From positions 1 through 64,000 of the forward strand of contig NZ_JAKDKW010000001.1 of assembly GCF_030453185.1 (NCBI RefSeq): a stretch of DNA of 64,000 bases, written 5' to 3'. Shown piece by piece: positions 52,166 through 64,000 of the stretch. The position numbers and the translations under genes are program-made. Below the pieces are notes generated by a model. The model saw only the letters and a program-made list of their open reading frames with translations, searched no databases and had not been told where the DNA came from. The DNA is from Yaniella sp. GTDB taxonomy: Bacteria > Actinomycetota > Actinomycetes > Actinomycetales > Micrococcaceae. The stretch's first letter is position 1; every line of letters begins with the position of its first letter.

Positions 52166-54271
52166 GTGGTCAAACAATCCGAGTACAGTGCACGAAACCT
52201 CTCAGTCCTTGAGGGACTCGAAGCGGTGCGCAAACGCCCGGGCATGTATATCGGGTCCACTGATTCCCGTGGGCTCATGCATTGTCTTTGGGAAATCATC
52301 GATAACTCAGTGGATGAAGCTCTTGGTGGCTATGGCCAGTCAATAGACATCACCTTGTACGCGGATGGCTCTGTTGAAGTCTCTGATAACGGTCGTGGTA
52401 TCCCAGTCGATATCGAACCCCGCACCGGTTTGTCCGGTGTGGAAGTCGTGTTCACCAAACTTCATGCCGGCGGTAAATTCAGTTCTGAATCCTACGCTGC
52501 CGCAGGGGGTCTCCACGGTGTAGGAGCAGCCGTCGTCAACGCACTATCTGCCCGTTTGGATGTACAAGTGACCCGGGGTGGAAAAGTCCACCAGCTCAGT
52601 TTCAAGCGCGGTCAACCTGGACAGTTCATTGACAAGGGAAAACCCAGTGCCGATGGGCTTTTTGAAGCGCAGGAATCTGGAACAGAAGTCGCCGTTGTTG
52701 GGAAAGCAAAGCGCGGTTTGACCGGCACAAAAATTCGTTACTGGGCGGACACCCAAATTTTTACTCCTGACGCAACGTTCTTGTATGAGGAACTTGAACA
52801 ACGCGCCCGTCAAACTGCTTTTCTCATTCCAGGCTTACGCATTACCGTTCGTGATGAACGTCGTCTTGCCGGTACTCCGGGCGAAAACGGCCCTCACGAA
52901 GAAGTCTTCCAATATGACGGGGGTATCTCCGAATTTGTAGATCACCTGTCACAGCTCAACCCTGTCACGGATGTGTGGCGCCTTCATGGCGAAGGAAACT
53001 TTAGCGAACGCGTACCTGTCCTTGACAGTTCAGGACAGGCCCATATGCAAGATGTCGAACGTACCTGTGAAGTTGATGTGGCCTTGCGCTGGGACGTGGG
53101 TTACGACACTAAAATACGAAGTTTCGTCAATATTATTGCGACCCCAAAGGGTGGTTCGCACAACACCGGGTTCGACCAGGCCCTGACCAGGGTGTTCCGT
53201 AAGGCCGTTGAAGCTAATGCTCGCCGTCTGAAAGCGGGAAACGATCGTGTTGAAAAGGACGACATTCTGGCTGGCCTGACGGCAATCGTTACCGTTCGTT
53301 TGGCAGAACCACAGTTTGAGGGACAAACCAAAGAAGTCCTGGGGACACCTGCTGCGCGACAGATCGTCTCCAAAGTCGTTGCTGACCAACTGACCGAGCT
53401 GCTGCAGTCTCGTAAACGTGCTGTGAAGCAACAGGTGGACGGCCTGTTAGAAAAGATCGTTGCGGAAATGAAGTCGCGTATTATGGCGCGCACCGCCAAG
53501 GAGACCCAACGTCGTAAGACAGCCTTAGAGACATCATCGATGCCTGCGAAGTTGGCCGATTGTCGTTCCACGTCGGTTGAAGATACCGAGTTATTCATCG
53601 TCGAAGGGGACTCGGCTCTGGGTACAGCAAAACTTGCGAGGTCCTCGGACTACCAGGCGTTGCTACCTATTCGCGGTAAAATCCTCAATGTCCAGAAAGC
53701 TTCAGTTGGCGAAATGCTAAACAATGCTGAGGCATCTGCGCTGATCCAAGTCGTTGGTGGGGGATCGGGGCGCAGCTTCGATATGGAGTCGGCACGCTAC
53801 GGAAAGGTCATCTTGATGACCGACGCCGACGTTGATGGAGCCCATATCCGAACCTTATTGCTGACCCTATTCTTCAGATACATGCGACCCATGGTTGAAG
53901 CCGGACGAGTCTATGCTGCCGTTCCACCGTTACATCGAGTCGAAGTGATTAACCCAGGTTCCAAAGCCAATGAAGTGATCTATACCTATGCTGAACAAGA
54001 ATTGCACGATGTTCTTGCCCGGTTAGAAACTGACGGCCGCAAAATTAAAGAGCCGATCCAACGCTATAAGGGTCTTGGAGAAATGGACGCGGATCAGTTG
54101 GCGGAGACGACGATGGATCCGGCCCACCGGACACTTCGCCGTGTCAATATTGAGGAATTGGAAAAAGCCGAAGAAATATTTGAACTGCTGATGGGCCGGC
54201 ATGTCGCTCCTCGGCGTGATTTTATAATCTCCGGTGCAGAAGAACTCGATCGACAGCAAATCGACGCTTAG
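52166..54271 (+). CDS. parE: DNA topoisomerase IV subunit B / GyrB-like
   Basis: LEAVRKRPGMYIGSTDSRGLMHCLWEIIDNSVDEA, EGDSALGTAK, DADVDGAHIRTLLLTL; GTG start. Confidence 0.93.
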   Translation: MVKQSEYSARNLSVLEGLEAVRKRPGMYIGSTDSRGLMHCLWEIIDNSVDEALGGYGQSIDITLYADGSVEVSDNGRGIPVDIEPRTGLSGVEVVFTKLHAGGKFSSESYAAAGGLHGVGAAVVNALSARLDVQVTRGGKVHQLSFKRGQPGQFIDKGKPSADGLFEAQESGTEVAVVGKAKRGLTGTKIRYWADTQIFTPDATFLYEELEQRARQTAFLIPGLRITVRDERRLAGTPGENGPHEEVFQYDGGISEFVDHLSQLNPVTDVWRLHGEGNFSERVPVLDSSGQAHMQDVERTCEVDVALRWDVGYDTKIRSFVNIIATPKGGSHNTGFDQALTRVFRKAVEANARRLKAGNDRVEKDDILAGLTAIVTVRLAEPQFEGQTKEVLGTPAARQIVSKVVADQLTELLQSRKRAVKQQVDGLLEKIVAEMKSRIMARTAKETQRRKTALETSSMPAKLADCRSTSVEDTELFIVEGDSALGTAKLARSSDYQALLPIRGKILNVQKASVGEMLNNAEASALIQVVGGGSGRSFDMESARYGKVILMTDADVDGAHIRTLLLTLFFRYMRPMVEAGRVYAAVPPLHRVEVINPGSKANEVIYTYAEQELHDVLARLETDGRKIKEPIQRYKGLGEMDADQLAETTMDPAHRTLRRVNIEELEKAEEIFELLMGRHVAPRRDFIISGAEELDRQQIDA

Positions 54272-55287
54272 CTGCCATAATGCTGTTTGGTCAGCTGGAA
54301 GCCCTCCTCCAAGGAGATGCGGGGCTTCCACTGCAGGATCCGTTGGGTTCGACGCTGGTCGAACCAGTGGGCCGTCGACATTTGCTCGGCTAAGAAGCGC
54401 GTAATCGGGGGTTCATCACCGCGTTTTTCAGCGTCCCAGAACGCCTCGATAACGCTGCCGGCGGCCTTGGCTAATCCGGCTGGAAGATCCAAGGTGGGTT
54501 CTTCTGCGCCGCCAGCTACGGCGATGCGACGTATCATCTCACCAATTGGTCGAGGTTGACCATTGGTCAGGACGAGTGCCTCACCGTGGGTGGTATCGAC
54601 GGCATTGATCGCAGTGACGATAGCTTCCACCGCATTGAGCAAAAACAGGGTATCGACAAGTGCAGTCCCGCCATCTAGGAGCGGTAGACGGTTTTGACGG
54701 GCCCGATCGATAATACGTTCCGTCAGTTGTGTATCACCTGGCCCCCACATTAAGTGTGGGCGAAGAACCAGCACCCGGAATTGTTCTGAATCTGCAGCGA
54801 GTGCGAGAAGTTCACCGGCAGCTTTGGTCGCGGCATAATTGCCACGGGCAGTGTCCGGATTCGCAGGTTCGGCTTCGGCACCAATGATCGAGGCACCAGA
54901 ATGGGCCACTGATGGTGAAGAAATATGTATCCACCGTGAGACCCCGGTCGTTTGGGCGGCCGTCAACAAGGTACGGGTGCCCTCAATATTGACCTGTTCG
55001 TATTCTTTGGCCGACCCAGACACCGACACCTTGGCGGCGATATGAACCACCGTGTCCATCCCCTGAACGGCGTGATGGGCGGTCTCTGGGTCGGTTACAG
55101 AACCGCGTATCTCGTGGACGCCGTCGAGTCCTGAAGCTGATCGCTGGAGTACCGTCACCTGCGCTCCAGCATCTCGTAGCGCTTGTGCGACACCGGAACC
55201 TAGAACACCGGATGCTCCGGTGACGAGCACGTTGTACCCGGTGAAATCGTCTGTTACGTATTGAAACGATGCATGCGAGCTGGTCAT
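54268..55287 (-). CDS. oleD: NAD-dependent epimerase/dehydratase, OleD-like 2-alkyl-3-ketoalkanoate reductase
   Basis: VLVTGASGVLGSGVAQAL, YAATKAAGE (YxxxK); adjacent to oleBC/oleA. Confidence 0.85.
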   Translation of the reverse strand: MTSSHASFQYVTDDFTGYNVLVTGASGVLGSGVAQALRDAGAQVTVLQRSASGLDGVHEIRGSVTDPETAHHAVQGMDTVVHIAAKVSVSGSAKEYEQVNIEGTRTLLTAAQTTGVSRWIHISSPSVAHSGASIIGAEAEPANPDTARGNYAATKAAGELLALAADSEQFRVLVLRPHLMWGPGDTQLTERIIDRARQNRLPLLDGGTALVDTLFLLNAVEAIVTAINAVDTTHGEALVLTNGQPRPIGEMIRRIAVAGGAEEPTLDLPAGLAKAAGSVIEAFWDAEKRGDEPPITRFLAEQMSTAHWFDQRRTQRILQWKPRISLEEGFQLTKQHYGS

Positions 55288-58097
55288 CACAGTGCGGTTA
55301 CCTTTCCTCCAGCCAGGACTTTTTCCGCCCATTCGGCTAGTAGGGGGCGGTTGATTTTTGAGTTGTGTCGAATATCTACCGGAACTCTGTGAGTCACTAA
55401 GACGGCCGCGATATCAATATCAGTAGCTGCTCGGACATCATCGGAGAGAGCGCTTGGTGCTAGGCCTGGCTTGATGTCGCCGTCATGAGGCTCAACCACA
55501 GCAACTATCGCTTGTGTGCCTACGGGACCAACACCAACTATCGCTACGCGATTGATCGAGGGTAACCGCTGAATATCGTCTTCCGGACCGCCTGGACCGA
55601 AGGCACCGGTCGACGGCGTGACGATGTGTTGTGTTCGCCCTTCGATCCATAGTCTGCCGTGCTCATCGAAATGGCCTATATCGCCGGTTCGATGCCATTG
55701 CAAACCATCGACAGAGTCGACGCGGGTCTGTCGGTTGGTATTGTAAAGCTTGTCGTAGCCGGCCAGCATATGCGGTGTTGAAATGACGATTTCGGCAAGT
55801 TTATTGACGGCGTTGTCGCCTTCGAAAAGTTCATCCGATGACCGCCCCAAGAAATCGAGTGGCGCCATGGCGACTCGCGCAACGTCCAGAGGTTTACCTA
55901 CGCACACACCACGATCATCCCTGCCGGCGATAGCGTGCTGGGTGTGATGATCGATATCTGAGATCAACAGCGACTCTGTCATCCCGTATGGTGAATGAAA
56001 TTCTGCGTTTGGTACCAGTTCTAGAACCTCATTCATGAGGGGGACCGGTACGGGGGCGCCTGCCGAGAGCAGCATGGAGATCTGCTCTAGTGCGGTTCGC
56101 TGCTCGGTGTTGAGTTCATGAGCGGTGTCCACGACGTTGCGCAGGGCGGCAGGTGAAGCAAAGATCATGGTGGTATCACCCGCGATTGCGGCCTGGGCAA
56201 GGGATTTCGCAGTCAGGGTGGCAGGTTTTGTCACCGACATATTTGGAGTCACCGAAGTGGCACCGATGGCTGGTCCCAGCAAGGCAAACGGGGCAAAACC
56301 AGCCAGCAAGCTGGATCCGGGTTCAACATGGAGCGTGTGTTGGAGACGTTGAGTCAGCGCAGAGAGTTTTTGGTGCGTATACCGAACGCCTTTGGCAGGT
56401 CCGGTTGAACCCGAGGTGAAGAGGATTGCGGCATCGTCGGTTGGGTTCGGATCAGGCTGTTCTGCTGTAGGGCCGTACTGCTGGCCAGCATAGGTTGAAG
56501 CAAAACCATATATGGAGCCGCTCAGTCCAAGAACTCTCCTGGCGATGGGGTCCATGGTCTTCACACTTAGACGTTTACCGGGTAGATTTCCGATTCGAGC
56601 CAGGGAAAGTCCCGGTGTCTGACCAATAATCCATTGTGGTGCAGCTGATCTGATGGCGCGTGTCATGCCGTCGACGCCCAGTCCTGCGTCGGTGACCACT
56701 GCGACACCGCCCACACGCAGTACAGCGTAGAGCGCTGCGGTGAGATCCCTGCCGGGCTCGACCAGCATGGAGACTCGGTCACCTGGACGCATCCCGTTTT
56801 CTCGGAAGCCTACGGCGATCGCATCGACCATTGAGGACAGCTTCGCCCAGGTTACTTCAAACGGCTTGCCGTGTGCATCGTTGATGGTCATATCAACCAT
56901 GGCCTTCGTCGAGGACTCGGACCATTGGTCAAGAAAACTCCAAAGGGGGGAGTAGTCGCCCACTGCTTCAGAGCCTCGGGCAGCAGTGAGGTCTGGGGTG
57001 GGTCGGTTGTCCCCGTCAAGTTGTTGACGTATCCAGCCGAGAACGGGCACAGAAATATCCCGGTCTTCAGCAAGGAGATGACCCGCGGTGTTATACCGAT
57101 GAATAACAACGTCGTCGATCCGTTGGAGTAAATCATGCTGATAACGATCAAGGAAGACTGGGTCTTTGGCGCCCCACAGTAACAGGGCGGGTTTCTCGGT
57201 GCTGCTAAGTTGGTTGGCTACTTTCCGCAAAGCGTTACGGGAGCGATGACTCTCCGTGGCTGGGATATCTGCGACGAAGCCACCGATGCCACCGCGATCC
57301 TGACGTCCACGATAGGGCGCTTTATAGGCAGTTTTGATGTCCTTTGCCAATGCCGGTTGCCCCAGGGCCAATGTGGTGTCCAGAAACGCTGGGGTCACGA
57401 CTGTGGAGCCAGATAAAACTGGACCGGCTAAGGCAGCTTGCAGCGGTGCGGGTATGGGGTCCGACTCTTCATGCCAGACGGCTGTGTTGAGTGAGATCAT
57501 ACCGGACGGTTCAACTCCAGAACCAGATGACCGGACGTCGGCGTCGGTCGCCCAGCCAAGCGAAATAATACCGCCCCAGTCATGACCCAAACTAAAGACG
57601 GGCGCTTTGTTGGAGTCGCTGATGAGTTCAGCGACGACCGCATCAAGATCGTAAATACGTTGTTCTAGGGTTCGATACGAGGAGCTGCTTCCGGCAGCGG
57701 AGGGCAAGCTCGTATGTTCGAGTCGTTCAGAAAAGCCCATGTCGAGCTGATCGGGGGCAATGACTCGTATAACGGGTGCTCGACCTGCACCCGGTCCAAG
57801 TTCGACGTTTCCTTGGGCTGCCTCAAGACCGGCTTGAGCAATATGACGCCACAAATAGGACCATGTCGGATTGCCGTGTACTGCGATGACGATGGCATCG
57901 ATGTCGTCGGGACCGATGCCGCGGTCAGCCAACATCGGCCCAGTATCGAGCACATGAAACTGCCGGGTGCCGTCACAGGTTTCCGCCTCGACGATTTGAG
58001 ACCACCGAGGATCCCATCCCGGCAGCTGTAGTGGATCAAGTACTGAATGTGGGTATTGCGCCGGTTTGGGGGAAATCATGGGGGAGAGGGTCACCAC
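55287..58097 (-). CDS. oleBC: OleBC fusion: alpha/beta hydrolase (beta-lactone decarboxylase) + AMP-dependent beta-lactone synthetase
   Basis: N-terminal GHDWGG alpha/beta hydrolase; C-terminal ILFTSGSTGPAKGVRYTH ANL domain; operon with oleA/oleD. Confidence 0.87.
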   Translation of the reverse strand: MVTLSPMISPKPAQYPHSVLDPLQLPGWDPRWSQIVEAETCDGTRQFHVLDTGPMLADRGIGPDDIDAIVIAVHGNPTWSYLWRHIAQAGLEAAQGNVELGPGAGRAPVIRVIAPDQLDMGFSERLEHTSLPSAAGSSSSYRTLEQRIYDLDAVVAELISDSNKAPVFSLGHDWGGIISLGWATDADVRSSGSGVEPSGMISLNTAVWHEESDPIPAPLQAALAGPVLSGSTVVTPAFLDTTLALGQPALAKDIKTAYKAPYRGRQDRGGIGGFVADIPATESHRSRNALRKVANQLSSTEKPALLLWGAKDPVFLDRYQHDLLQRIDDVVIHRYNTAGHLLAEDRDISVPVLGWIRQQLDGDNRPTPDLTAARGSEAVGDYSPLWSFLDQWSESSTKAMVDMTINDAHGKPFEVTWAKLSSMVDAIAVGFRENGMRPGDRVSMLVEPGRDLTAALYAVLRVGGVAVVTDAGLGVDGMTRAIRSAAPQWIIGQTPGLSLARIGNLPGKRLSVKTMDPIARRVLGLSGSIYGFASTYAGQQYGPTAEQPDPNPTDDAAILFTSGSTGPAKGVRYTHQKLSALTQRLQHTLHVEPGSSLLAGFAPFALLGPAIGATSVTPNMSVTKPATLTAKSLAQAAIAGDTTMIFASPAALRNVVDTAHELNTEQRTALEQISMLLSAGAPVPVPLMNEVLELVPNAEFHSPYGMTESLLISDIDHHTQHAIAGRDDRGVCVGKPLDVARVAMAPLDFLGRSSDELFEGDNAVNKLAEIVISTPHMLAGYDKLYNTNRQTRVDSVDGLQWHRTGDIGHFDEHGRLWIEGRTQHIVTPSTGAFGPGGPEDDIQRLPSINRVAIVGVGPVGTQAIVAVVEPHDGDIKPGLAPSALSDDVRAATDIDIAAVLVTHRVPVDIRHNSKINRPLLAEWAEKVLAGGKVTAL

Positions 58098-59113
58098 TCT
58101 ATTTCTAGCATTGCAACGTTGAGACCTGAGCCCACACCCATGGTGAGTACCCGGTCACCTACTTTGAGGGAATCCAGTTCACGCGCGAGCGTAATGGGGA
58201 GGGCAGCTGGTCCAATATTACCTAGCGAAGGAAAAGTTGTGGGGATCTTTTTGCGGTCGATCCCGGCGGACTTGATGATTGCATCGGTATGCATTTGCGA
58301 TACCTGGTGGGTAATGTAGCGGTCCATGCTTCGCCAGTTCCAGTCTGCTGGAGTGTCGTTCCACGCATCCATGACCAAAGCCAAACCGTGTTCGAGCAGA
58401 GCGCCGGAGTCGGTAATCATGCCGTTATGTCCACCTTGGCATAACTGGTGGTGCTGTGTTCCGGCGCGAGTAACACCACGGAGGATTCGGTGACCTTCCG
58501 GGTGCTGATCAGCGCGTCCCAGGACTGCAGCTGCAGCACCTGAGCCGAGGGTCAGTGAAGCAAATTGCTCCATGAAATTATCACGAGTGGTCGTATCCGA
58601 GAGCAGGTTTCGTAATGTGGCCTCTTGAACCTGCTTGGCATCTTCACCTGCCACCACGACGGCATAGTCGATTTGTCCGGAGTCAATGAGTGTTGAAGCC
58701 AAATCCATTCCGTTGACGAACCCGAGACAGGCGTTGGTGATATCAAAATTGGTGGCCTTTGGCGCCAAGCCCATGGAATCGTGAATCTGAACAGAAACAG
58801 CAGGTTCTAATTCCGTTCTAGTAACGGATGTGTTGATTAACAATCCCACGGCATCGGGAGCAATGCCTGCTTCGGCGAGGGCCTTGACCCCGGCTTGAGC
58901 TGCTCCAGCAACATAATCTTGGGGCGTTTCCCACATTCTTCGAGTGTGTACCCCGGCTACACGTTCTAGGAGCCGTTTGGGTAACCGCAAACGCTTGAGC
59001 ACGGCTGCCAGACGGTCGTCGATCATGTCGGAAGTGACTTCCACCGGAGCGGTCACTTCTACCACAGAAAGTAATGCCGCATTGTGGTGAATTGAAACCG
59101 CATTAGAACTCAC
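58091..59113 (-). CDS. oleA: 3-oxoacyl-ACP synthase III family, OleA-like
   Basis: NACLGFVNGMDLAS active-site Cys; thiolase III fold; 7-nt overlap with oleBC. Confidence 0.87.
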   Translation of the reverse strand: MSSNAVSIHHNAALLSVVEVTAPVEVTSDMIDDRLAAVLKRLRLPKRLLERVAGVHTRRMWETPQDYVAGAAQAGVKALAEAGIAPDAVGLLINTSVTRTELEPAVSVQIHDSMGLAPKATNFDITNACLGFVNGMDLASTLIDSGQIDYAVVVAGEDAKQVQEATLRNLLSDTTTRDNFMEQFASLTLGSGAAAAVLGRADQHPEGHRILRGVTRAGTQHHQLCQGGHNGMITDSGALLEHGLALVMDAWNDTPADWNWRSMDRYITHQVSQMHTDAIIKSAGIDRKKIPTTFPSLGNIGPAALPITLARELDSLKVGDRVLTMGVGSGLNVAMLEIEW

Positions 59114-60282: not shown

Positions 60283-60729
60283 CTAGCTGTCGCGGGACTG
60301 TAGAAGGTGGCGAACGTGTTGGGCGTCGGATGGTTCAATGCCACCGATAAAACGAGCTAGCACAGCGTGTTTGTCTACGGCTGAGCCGAGAACGTCGTTT
60401 AAGAGCTTGACTGTGTGTTCTTCACGGCTGGTGGCTGCCGTGAATTCATGCGGGCGGCGTGAGGAATCTTTGGTGACGAACCCTTTTTTGCTCAGCCGAC
60501 CTAAGACGGTGAGCACCGTGGTGATAGCTGATGCGCTGTCTTGGCGCTGTGCCAGTGCGTCACGCACTTCATTGGCGGTGAGTGCCTCCGTCGAGTCCCA
60601 CAGCAGATTCATAATCGCTTGTTCCAGTTCGCCCAATGACGTCCCTTCAAGAATTCCTGTACTGAGACCGGTGTGAGTGAAAGTTTGCGGCTCAGTGTTA
60701 TTACATTGAGACTCAACATCATAACGCAT
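60283..60729 (-). CDS. BlaI/MecI/CopY family transcriptional regulator
   Basis: LGELEQAIMNLLWDSTEALTANEVRDAL...AITTVLTVLGRLSKKGFV; real start may be TTG 60633 (SD GAAGGGA). Confidence 0.9.
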   Translation of the reverse strand: MRYDVESQCNNTEPQTFTHTGLSTGILEGTSLGELEQAIMNLLWDSTEALTANEVRDALAQRQDSASAITTVLTVLGRLSKKGFVTKDSSRRPHEFTAATSREEHTVKLLNDVLGSAVDKHAVLARFIGGIEPSDAQHVRHLLQSRDS

Positions 60730-60741
60730 TAACGAGATGAA

Positions 60742-60758
60742 TTCTACAGCATGTAGAA
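60742..60758. promoter_or_regulatory. BlaI-type operator 1
   Basis: TTCTACA-GCA-TGTAGAA. Confidence 0.75.
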
Positions 60759-60785
60759 GACTTGAGGCGCCGTGGAATCTGCGAT

Positions 60786-60802
60786 TTCTACATTGTGTAG
60801 AA
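60786..60802. promoter_or_regulatory. BlaI-type operator 2
   Basis: TTCTACA-TTG-TGTAGAA. Confidence 0.75.
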
Positions 60803-60944
60803 GTGTGGTTAGTATGGCCCTAAAGGTTGGCAGACAACCAGCCGGTGAGGTTTAGCACGGTCGGCCTGGCCTGTGATTCACCCACACCGGAATTCTCTAA
60901 AATTTCGAGCGTCGGCGCTTTAGGCCGGTGGGAGAGGGGCCCAA

Positions 60945-62525
60945 ATGGATCCTCTTGAGGTAGCCCGGTGGCAGTTTGGTATTACGACTGTTTACCATTT
61001 TTTGATGGTGCCGCTGACCATCGGCTTGGGCATTGTCTTAGTCGCTATGCAAACTGCTTGGCACAGGACCGGTAAAGAACAGTACCTACGGATGACCAAG
61101 TTCTGGGGCAAAATTTTCATGATTAACTTCATCATGGGGGTTGCCACGGGCTTGGTCCAGGAATTCCAGTTTGGGATGGCTTGGAGTGAATACTCGCGGT
61201 TCGTCGGTGACGTGTTCGGTGCCCCATTGGCCATGGAAGCCCTCATCGCATTCTTCCTGGAATCCGTTTTTATTGGAATCTGGGTTTTTGGTTGGGGACG
61301 AGTCCGTCCAAGAGTGCACCTGACGGTGTTGTGGCTGGCAGTGGCCGGTTCAGTCGTATCCGCATATTTCATCTTGGCCGCCAATGCCTTTATGCAGCAC
61401 CCGGTTGGTGTCGAGTACGTCGATGGCCGTGCCCAGATGGTTGATTTCTGGGCTGTCATGACGAACCCCACGCTCTTGGTTCATTTCCCCCACACGATCT
61501 TTGGCGCGCTTGCGGTTGCCGGATCGATGCTGCTTGGTATCGGCTGGTACCACCTCTGGAAGCGCCGCAAAGAAGGTATCGATACGGTGGATAAGCACGG
61601 TTATGTCGTGGTTGGATCTACCGGGTCAAAGGCTCGAGATGAGGTGGACTACAAGGGTTGGCGCTCATCGTTTCGCTGGGGCGGATGGATCGCCATCGTC
61701 GCGTTCTTAGGCACGGCGTTTACCGGCCACACACAGGCACAAATGATGATCCAGCAACAACCACTCAAGATGGCCGCAGCAGAGGCAGCCTGCCATGATG
61801 GCACCGGATTCTCGCTGCTGTCGGTGGCCAGCCGCGATGGCGAGGGCGCAACGACCTGTAACGACGTCGTGGGAGTCTTTGAAATTCCGGGGCTGTTGTC
61901 GTTCTTGGCGCATAATGATTTCACCACTCCGGTAGAAGGCGTCAACTCGCTGATCCCACAGTATGAGGAAGCTTTCGGTACGCATCTGCCTGACGACCCT
62001 CGTTATGGCGAGCGTGCTGGTTCTGAAATCGAATACCTCCCGATTATGGAAGTCACCTACTGGGGCTTCCGGCTGATGATTACCTTCGGTGGTATTGCAG
62101 CAGTAGCCGCAGCACTTGGACTATGGATCGGGCGCAAAGGCACGGTGCCCCATGATAAGACCCTGATGAATATGGCGTGGTTATCGATTCTGGCCCCGTT
62201 TGCTGCTAACTCAGCCGGATGGATCTTTACCGAGATGGGACGACAGCCCTTTACTGTTGCTCCAAACCCGGATCCAACTGGCGTTGATCAGGTCTGGCAG
62301 TACACTGCAGCGGCGGTATCGCCAGGAGTGACCGGTCAAGAGATAGTATTTTCCCTTGCCGCATTGACGCTGATCTACGCGTTGTTATTGGTAGTCGAAG
62401 TCGTGTTGTTGGTTCGATACACCAAAGGTGGGCACCCGGCGGGGATGCCTGAACTGTTGGCGGATGAGGACACCGATGATGACGACCATAAACCGTCTTC
62501 CGATGTGTTGTCCTTCGCATACTAA
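60945..62525 (+). CDS. cydA: Cytochrome bd ubiquinol/menaquinol oxidase subunit I
   Basis: ARWQFGITTVYHFLMVPLTIGL, GLVQEFQFGMAWSEYSRFVGDVFGAPLAMEAL. Confidence 0.98.
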   Translation: MDPLEVARWQFGITTVYHFLMVPLTIGLGIVLVAMQTAWHRTGKEQYLRMTKFWGKIFMINFIMGVATGLVQEFQFGMAWSEYSRFVGDVFGAPLAMEALIAFFLESVFIGIWVFGWGRVRPRVHLTVLWLAVAGSVVSAYFILAANAFMQHPVGVEYVDGRAQMVDFWAVMTNPTLLVHFPHTIFGALAVAGSMLLGIGWYHLWKRRKEGIDTVDKHGYVVVGSTGSKARDEVDYKGWRSSFRWGGWIAIVAFLGTAFTGHTQAQMMIQQQPLKMAAAEAACHDGTGFSLLSVASRDGEGATTCNDVVGVFEIPGLLSFLAHNDFTTPVEGVNSLIPQYEEAFGTHLPDDPRYGERAGSEIEYLPIMEVTYWGFRLMITFGGIAAVAAALGLWIGRKGTVPHDKTLMNMAWLSILAPFAANSAGWIFTEMGRQPFTVAPNPDPTGVDQVWQYTAAAVSPGVTGQEIVFSLAALTLIYALLLVVEVVLLVRYTKGGHPAGMPELLADEDTDDDDHKPSSDVLSFAY

Positions 62526-62563: not shown

Positions 62564-63583
62564 ATGGAATTTCTTCCAACGTTGTGGTTCATCCTCATTG
62601 CTGTGCTGTGGATCGGATACTTGGTCCTCGACGGCTTCGATTTAGGCGTCGGCATGTTAATGAAGGTTTGGGCGAAAAACGAATCTCAGCGGCGTGTCTT
62701 GCTGAACTCCATTGGACCCGTTTGGGACGGCAACGAGGTGTGGCTCGTTACGGCAGCTGGCGCAACCTTTGCGGCCTTCCCACACTGGTATGCTTCGATG
62801 TTTGCTGGTTTGTATATTCCGCTCACCCTTGCCCTGCTGGCATTGATTTTGCGCGCGGTATCGATTGAATACCGGGGTAAATCGCACAGTCAAACCGCAC
62901 GCAACCTGTGGACTTGGGCCATGGCCGGCGGATCATTTGTCGCAGCTTTCACCATCGGCGCGATGCTGGCCCTGACCACAACAGGTCTACCACTCAACGA
63001 ATACGGTGACCGCGTGGGCGGGCCGTTTGCCTGGTTCAACGGTTGGGCTGTTTTGGGTGGCCTGGCAGTTGTCGGTATTTCACTTGCTCAGGGGTGGGCC
63101 TTCTTATCGCTGAAGACTCTGGGCGCACCACGGCTAGCGGGCAATCGCCAACTTCGACGCTACTTACCGTTGTATTTCTTACCAGCGGCCACCTGGGCGA
63201 TCCTGGTCGTAATGCGCTACCCGAAGGTGCCATCGTGGGGCATGCTCACTGTCGCAGCAGTTGGTCTGGTGTTGGCATGGGGCGCTTCGAGCCGACGAAA
63301 AGAAGGGTTAACCTTCACCGGCATGGTGGTGTTTATCGTTTTTGGGGTCGGAGCGATTTTTACTGCACTGTACCCAAACGTGCTGCCATCAACGATCAAC
63401 GAGGCATACAACCTCACCGTCACGACGGCGTCGTCCTCGGACTATACATTGACCGTCATGGCTATTGTCACGGCGATCTTCTTCCCGTTGGTTCTGGCGT
63501 ATAGCGTATGGAGCTACTGGGTGTTCCGCCAACGTCTCGGGGAACAGCACATACCTGAGTCCGTGGTGGTGACCCCGGTTTGA
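62564..63583 (+). CDS. cydB: Cytochrome bd oxidase subunit II
   Basis: LWFILIAVLWIGYLVLDGFDLGVGML, GPVWDGNEVWLVTAAGATFAAFP. Confidence 0.98.
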   Translation: MEFLPTLWFILIAVLWIGYLVLDGFDLGVGMLMKVWAKNESQRRVLLNSIGPVWDGNEVWLVTAAGATFAAFPHWYASMFAGLYIPLTLALLALILRAVSIEYRGKSHSQTARNLWTWAMAGGSFVAAFTIGAMLALTTTGLPLNEYGDRVGGPFAWFNGWAVLGGLAVVGISLAQGWAFLSLKTLGAPRLAGNRQLRRYLPLYFLPAATWAILVVMRYPKVPSWGMLTVAAVGLVLAWGASSRRKEGLTFTGMVVFIVFGVGAIFTALYPNVLPSTINEAYNLTVTTASSSDYTLTVMAIVTAIFFPLVLAYSVWSYWVFRQRLGEQHIPESVVVTPV

Positions 63584-64000
63584 TACCGGAACTCCCCGCT
63601 TCCAAAACTGGACGCCGAGCTCTCATCGGGCTCGGCGTCTTAGCCCTGTTCAAACTGGCCGGTTGGATTCTCATTGCGGTGTCCCTGTCACAGGGCATCT
63701 CACGGCTCGCGACGGCCTTGCCTGCCTCGGATGCAGCACAGCTACTGCAGTTGCTGTTCAACTCGCCGCGTACCGCCCCGGGTCTTATCGACTCACTGGT
63801 CGATTTCACCATGAGTAATGACTTTATGATGACGCTGGGGCTCGGGTTTGGCGGTGCGATCCTGCGGGGCCTTGCTGAGTGGGGGCAACAAGTCTTGGCG
63901 ACCAAAGCGGCACTTGGTGAGAAAGAGCATCTGCGACACCAACTGATCCGTCATCGACTCGCCGCAGCAGGGGCGCACACAGAGCGTGCCGGTGAAGATA
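63580..64000 (+). CDS. cydD: Thiol reductant ABC exporter subunit CydD (N-terminal part, truncated by window end)
   Basis: Open frame from TTG 63580 overlapping cydB stop; hydrophobic TM start, position after cydAB. Confidence 0.75.
   Translation, partial: MIPELPASKTGRRALIGLGVLALFKLAGWILIAVSLSQGISRLATALPASDAAQLLQLLFNSPRTAPGLIDSLVDFTMSNDFMMTLGLGFGGAILRGLAEWGQQVLATKAALGEKEHLRHQLIRHRLAAAGAHTERAGED

Follow-up and report, generated by a model that had tools for sequence, protein, structure and literature searches.

The two palindromes that lie between blaI and cydA in the Yaniella sp. genome are most likely operators of the neighbouring BlaI/BlaR-type repressor system, which from comparison of the genomes would control a regulon for respiration, haem and copper supply in Micrococcaceae. 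The joint explanation, in which BlaI would act on such operators throughout this regulon, repress both cydAB-cydDC and blaI-blaR, and be relieved by the BlaR protease, is given a probability of about 87%. The window is the whole stretch of DNA that was analysed (64,000 nucleotides) and its relevant features are listed in Table 1.

Table 1. Positions of the palindromes, the candidate promoter element and the surrounding genes in the window.
Feature	Position	Strand	Remarks
Operator 1, TTCTAC-AGCAT-GTAGAA	60742..60758	.	exact perfect palindrome; blaI-proximal
Operator 2, TTCTAC-ATTGT-GTAGAA	60786..60802	.	exact perfect palindrome; cydA-proximal
TAGTAT, candidate -10 of cydA promoter	60810..60815	+	18 bp after TTCTAC 60786-60791
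blaR-type membrane zinc metalloprotease, 324 aa	59287..60261	-	Pfam M48 and M56
blaI-type repressor gene, 148 aa ORF	60283..60729	-	Pfam Penicillinase_R 1.8e-19; true start may be downstream
cydA, cytochrome bd subunit I	60945..62525	+	Pfam Cyt_bd_oxida_I 2.3e-147
cydB, cytochrome bd subunit II	62564..63583	+	Pfam Cyt_bd_oxida_II 9.3e-92
cydDC start, fused CydD-CydC exporter	63580..64000	+	continues past window

The sequence-only reading had described TTCTACA-N3-TGTAGAA as occurring twice, 44 bp apart, in a divergent intergenic region. Both copies were found to be exact at the positions given in Table 1, their start-to-start distance is 44 bp, and both are located between the blaI-blaR pair and cydA. 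They are the only perfect matches to the 17-mer in the 64 kb window, in which five matches with up to three mismatches were detected versus 1.5 expected. The genome scan that had been proposed for the 17-mer yielded three occurrences of TTCTACANNNTGTAGAA in the whole 2.58-Mb genome versus none for the control, with the third site placed between hemY and hemQ, while the wider pattern TTCTAC-N5-GTAGAA occurred four times versus once for the control; these whole-genome scans are pattern matching only. One-mismatch matches in the same genome (L011, L012 and L014) were set aside, as they fall within coding sequence or between the ends of genes. A chance origin of the palindromes is ruled out by their genome-wide rarity, by shuffled controls, in which about 1 region in 2400 has an exact TCTAC-N5-GTAGA, and by the contrast between genomes with and without BlaI that is detailed below. 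The genes behind the palindromes had been named cydABD. This holds for cydA and cydB, but the presumed cydD, whose start overlaps the end of cydB, is one ORF of 1203 aa (L090:1581-5192) that encodes a fused CydDC and matches the NCBIfam models of both CydD (8.9e-169) and CydC (2e-153).

Sites of the 15-bp core were counted in the own genome and in a first, unbiased set of 60 relatives. The core was found at 66 sites in Micrococcaceae versus 9 for the control and at 2 sites versus 5 in the other families of the order, where there is no enrichment. Classification of the 66 exact matches assigned 30 to cydA/blaI regions and 13 to hemQ, followed by hemA/hemE, atpB (G005 and G009), ctaB, resA-ccdA, sdhC, sucC, isocitrate lyase and hmp. 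Some eight matches belong to none of these groups (trkH, PPK2, Usp, a PNPOx/VIT1 pair and two unclear loci); trkH, Usp and PPK2 have no clear respiration link, and a few exact matches are probably due to chance. Further sampling added ctaC, ctaE, an ABC-ABC-ctaA operon, CopC, YcnI (DUF1775) and a Crp-type regulator. The operator-bearing ABC-ctaA operon of G266 presumably corresponds to the rv1456c target that Sala 2009 reportedly described. The own genome contains four full operators, of which two precede cydA and blaI, one belongs to hemQ (identified by its NCBIfam match) and one to a PCuAC copper-chaperone operon. Within Yaniella, the hemQ site is repeated in G001-G006 and G008 and the copper-operon site in G001 and G003. 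The putative target set is thus much wider than cydAB and comprises haem, copper, cytochrome oxidase, ATP synthase and TCA genes. The same operator at hemQ, the copper-chaperone operon and respiratory genes of relatives suggests that these respiration, haem and copper-supply genes form a regulon under the local control of BlaI. A regulator named for penicillin-resistance genes instead appears, judged by its candidate sites, to govern these functions by means of a single conserved DNA site across Micrococcaceae, a family with members in soil and on skin.

The 148-aa ORF was verified as a BlaI-type protein by its Penicillinase_R winged-helix domain (70.6 bits, cut-off 22.6) and by the palindrome at its own promoter, which is also present beside the blaI genes of relatives. 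The sole PDB sequence match is 2G9W, the M. tuberculosis protein Rv1846c, and the recognition-helix residues T70, T71, V75, L76, R78 and L79 show at least 98% conservation and are also present in Rv1846c. The curated NCBIfam BlaI/MecI exception models scored below their cut-offs (28 versus 180 and 21 versus 250 bits), and a copper-only CopY-type regulator was rejected, as the CopY_TcrY model gave 31.6 bits with a cut-off of 121.95. The adjacent BlaR is a transmembrane M56-type zinc protease with an HExxH motif, although with 26.6 bits M56 does not reach its cut-off of 31 bits, while M48 exceeds its own. The HESAH sequence (residues 197-201) and the distal E238 are invariant in all relatives, and the AlphaFold model (pLDDT 83.5) contains membrane helices and a metalloprotease domain, for which the best PDB structural matches are weak ones to S. 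aureus BlaR1 chains (E 2.7e-3). A penicillin-binding sensor domain was found in the 324-aa BlaR neither by Pfam nor in the predicted model, and the cell-envelope sensor invoked in the sequence-only reading is conjectural. By analogy with BlaR1, this sensor-less M56/M48 protease probably responds to a signal from the membrane or from respiration and relieves repression through its action on BlaI.

The nature of this signal is where the strongest alternative applies. As proposed for M. tuberculosis, BlaR could sense cell-wall damage and tune respiration for antibiotic tolerance, a beta-lactam response that would be consistent with control of cydAB by BlaI. M. tuberculosis BlaI ties the beta-lactam response to ATP synthase (PMC12565901, PMC8265638), and amoxicillin-clavulanate induces both cydAB and blaI-blaR in that organism (PMC5473688). 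Nevertheless, with a BlaR that has no penicillin-binding domain and no beta-lactamase gene recognised among the operator-bearing loci, a beta-lactam signal is considered unlikely for the Micrococcaceae system.

The arrangement of the palindromes bears on the sign of regulation. Operator 1 precedes the start of the blaI ORF by 12 bp, and operator 2 overlaps the presumed -35/spacer region of a candidate cydA promoter, whose TAGTAT element is present behind operator 2 as had been noticed before. In the alignment of Yaniella genomes, the site of operator 1 is kept in most members, that of operator 2 in 9/9, and a TANNAT hexamer takes the position of TAGTAT in most. From these positions we infer that BlaI represses cydAB-cydDC as well as blaI-blaR: a BlaI dimer would occupy each TTCTAC-N5-GTAGAA, and dimers on operators 1 and 2 would block the blaI and cydA promoters. 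Activation of cydA by BlaI, for which one could argue that the sign is unreadable from sequence and that some genomes have distal sites at -155 to -240, is improbable given that the proximal site in the window overlaps the presumed cydA promoter. Known BlaI/MecI proteins are repressors. M. tuberculosis BlaI, too, represses its target Rv1303-atp, the ATP synthase operon (PMC12565901; review PMC5874750).

The 183 sites upstream of cydA yield the consensus TTCTAC-RNNNY-GTAGAA, in which the outer T (99%) and outer A (98%) are conserved even though they were not part of the search pattern. BlaI and MecI of S. aureus and B. licheniformis recognise dyad operators with TACA/TGTA-like half-sites, and the TACA/TGTA core of the window palindromes had been noted to match known BlaI/MecI operators. 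Position 7 is A in 55% and G in 41% of sites, so that TACA/TGTA is the A-variant of a slightly different core and the family-wide invariant part is TTCTAC/GTAGAA. At least two sites were found in 67/84 cydA upstream regions. In two-site promoters the preferred start-to-start distance is 24-25 bp (45 cases); distances of 32-35 and 44-46 bp are less frequent, and the operator pair of the window belongs to the 44-46 bp group. These distances are compatible with helical phasing, and their separation by approximately one helical turn suggests cooperative binding on one face of the DNA. The own genome also encodes a second BlaI-BlaR pair (BlaI_2; L004, G000:C2 around 17470). The BlaI_2 promoter carries the palindrome TACTAT-N5-ATAGTA, which has the same geometry but a different half-site, and none of the TTCTAC-N5-GTAGAA sites. 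Control of the latter by BlaI_2 was rejected for this reason, and the palindrome suggests a separate operator code for the paralogue.

Co-inheritance of operator and regulator was analysed with the criterion of an exact TCTAC-N5-GTAGA at most 300 bp upstream of cydA. Such a site is present in 52/52 first-sample genomes with BlaI and a main-type cydA. The set was enlarged by genera with patchy BlaI and by further loci, and an equivalent of operator 2 was then found in 80/81 Micrococcaceae genomes with BlaI versus 0/22 genomes with cydA but without BlaI; some of the later loci had been chosen for holding the motif, and the first figure becomes 57/58 when they are left out. The corresponding Fisher test value of 1.5e-21 ignores relatedness and overstates independence, since the genomes without BlaI are confined to three genera and provide few evolutionary contrasts, although two of these genera hold members with and without BlaI. 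One genome (G132) has a one-mismatch site upstream of cydA. The full 17-mer showed the same contrast, with 52 sites (control 4) in 15 genomes with BlaI and 1 site (control 4) in 14 genomes without it. Genus g3 lacks BlaI, and its sites were taken as chance: L221-L224 share one common sequence, the examined copy of which is inside a purQ-like gene, and the site of L220 is inside an ORF.

In most genomes blaI and cydA are divergent and share an intergenic region. Where the two genes are unlinked (G012, G042, G019 and G048), the cydA sites are retained and are paired in G012 and G042, while the BlaI proteins of G019 and G048 are only 34-35% identical. In three genomes without a detected cydA (G020, G032 and G059), blaI retains its operator. 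Judged by these distributions, the operator in Micrococcaceae tracks BlaI, not cydA, as expected of an autoregulated repressor. The proposal that BlaI controls cytochrome bd through both sites is strongly supported by the co-inheritance and by the retention at unlinked cydA. A different transcription factor co-inherited with BlaI is conceivable, as HrrSA of C. glutamicum exerts joint control over haem synthesis, cydAB and the bc1-aa3 branch (PMC7337898). This explanation is very improbable, because the site is found at blaI's own promoter in all arrangements, including those in which cydA is absent or elsewhere, genomes without BlaI drop to background, and a palindrome with an N5 spacer, a geometry shared by the paralogue's promoter, fits a BlaI dimer. 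HrrSA itself is a functional analogue, but a two-component system and an unrelated protein. That BlaI only autoregulates, with cydA an uncontrolled accidental neighbour, would account for the shared intergenic region but is hardly credible given the paired sites at unlinked cydA and the hemQ, copper-operon and atpB sites far from blaI.

The inferred BlaI regulon was compared with known systems. The closest is BlaI-BlaR of M. tuberculosis (Rv1846c-Rv1845c), whose BlaR likewise has no extracellular beta-lactam sensor domain (PMC5473688). The sequence-only reading had called the coupling to a respiratory oxidase unusual, which is only partly so: M. tuberculosis BlaI was reported to act on ATP synthase (PMC12565901), and a passage in one citing paper states that it binds the cytochrome bd promoter, with reference to Sala 2009 (PMC5473688). 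The two BlaI proteins belong to the same repressor family with 37% identity (blastp), and the ATP synthase operon, a target in M. tuberculosis, also carries the operator core in G005 and G009. Sala 2009 reportedly describes five loci with cydAB not among them, and the cytochrome bd citation needs checking. Orthology of the window BlaI is putative, as the paralogue BlaI_2 is 43% identical to Rv1846c. Unlike in M. tuberculosis, blaI is here head-to-head with cydA, and the candidate targets include cydAB, hemQ, copper chaperones and cytochrome oxidase genes. BlaI-BlaR1 and MecI-MecR1 of S. aureus and B. licheniformis have the same combination of a Penicillinase_R winged-helix repressor and an adjacent M56 protease, but with a penicillin-sensor domain and bla or mec targets, which are both missing here. 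The CopY/TcrY copper repressors are of the same superfamily, and one target here is a copper-chaperone operon, but the window BlaI has an M56 protease partner. The sequence evidence lends good support to the interpretation that the Micrococcaceae BlaI is a variant specialised in respiration, haem and copper supply. In the literature searched, which did not include Sala 2009, no earlier description of a connection between BlaI and cydA or hemQ in Micrococcaceae was found.

If this reading is true, a protein that all annotations name a penicillinase repressor is a respiration, haem and copper regulator across a large bacterial family, many annotations would be corrected, and the connection of BlaI with energy metabolism that was reported for M. 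tuberculosis would gain a mechanistic basis. It also raises the question of what a BlaR protease without a penicillin sensor detects. In its broadest form, on which we are evenly divided, BlaI/BlaR would be a master switch of aerobic respiration in Micrococcaceae (bd oxidase, haem, copper delivery and oxidase assembly, ATP synthase and TCA entry), and the sensor-less protease would respond to a signal from respiration or the membrane. Respiratory control, to which the mycobacterial ATP-synthase target also belongs, may predate beta-lactamase control in actinobacterial BlaI.

Several further observations were made. Genus g13 (L067, L216 and L237) has an additional cydA type that is only distantly related (about 43% identical), carries paired operators and has no adjacent blaI within the stretch examined. 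A head-to-head pair of blaI and a distant cydAB was also seen in a different family of the order (L144:2115-4888). The BlaI of this pair is closer to the paralogue, and the intergenic region contains TACTAC/GTAGTA repeats; the linkage of BlaI and cyd may extend beyond Micrococcaceae. In several genomes of one genus (L188-L194 and L263), the operator is found at the gene of a conserved 115-aa membrane protein, matching no Pfam family, downstream of a sucB-like gene. In two genera, a Crp-type regulator gene is preceded by the full operator (L312:2001-2017 and L320:2001-2017). Downstream of blaR and on the same strand of the window (54268-59113, minus strand), genes for a beta-ketoacyl-synthase III, a fused hydrolase/AMP-ligase and an NAD-epimerase were found, which resemble the OleA-OleBC-OleD long-chain hydrocarbon cluster and are named by this resemblance only.
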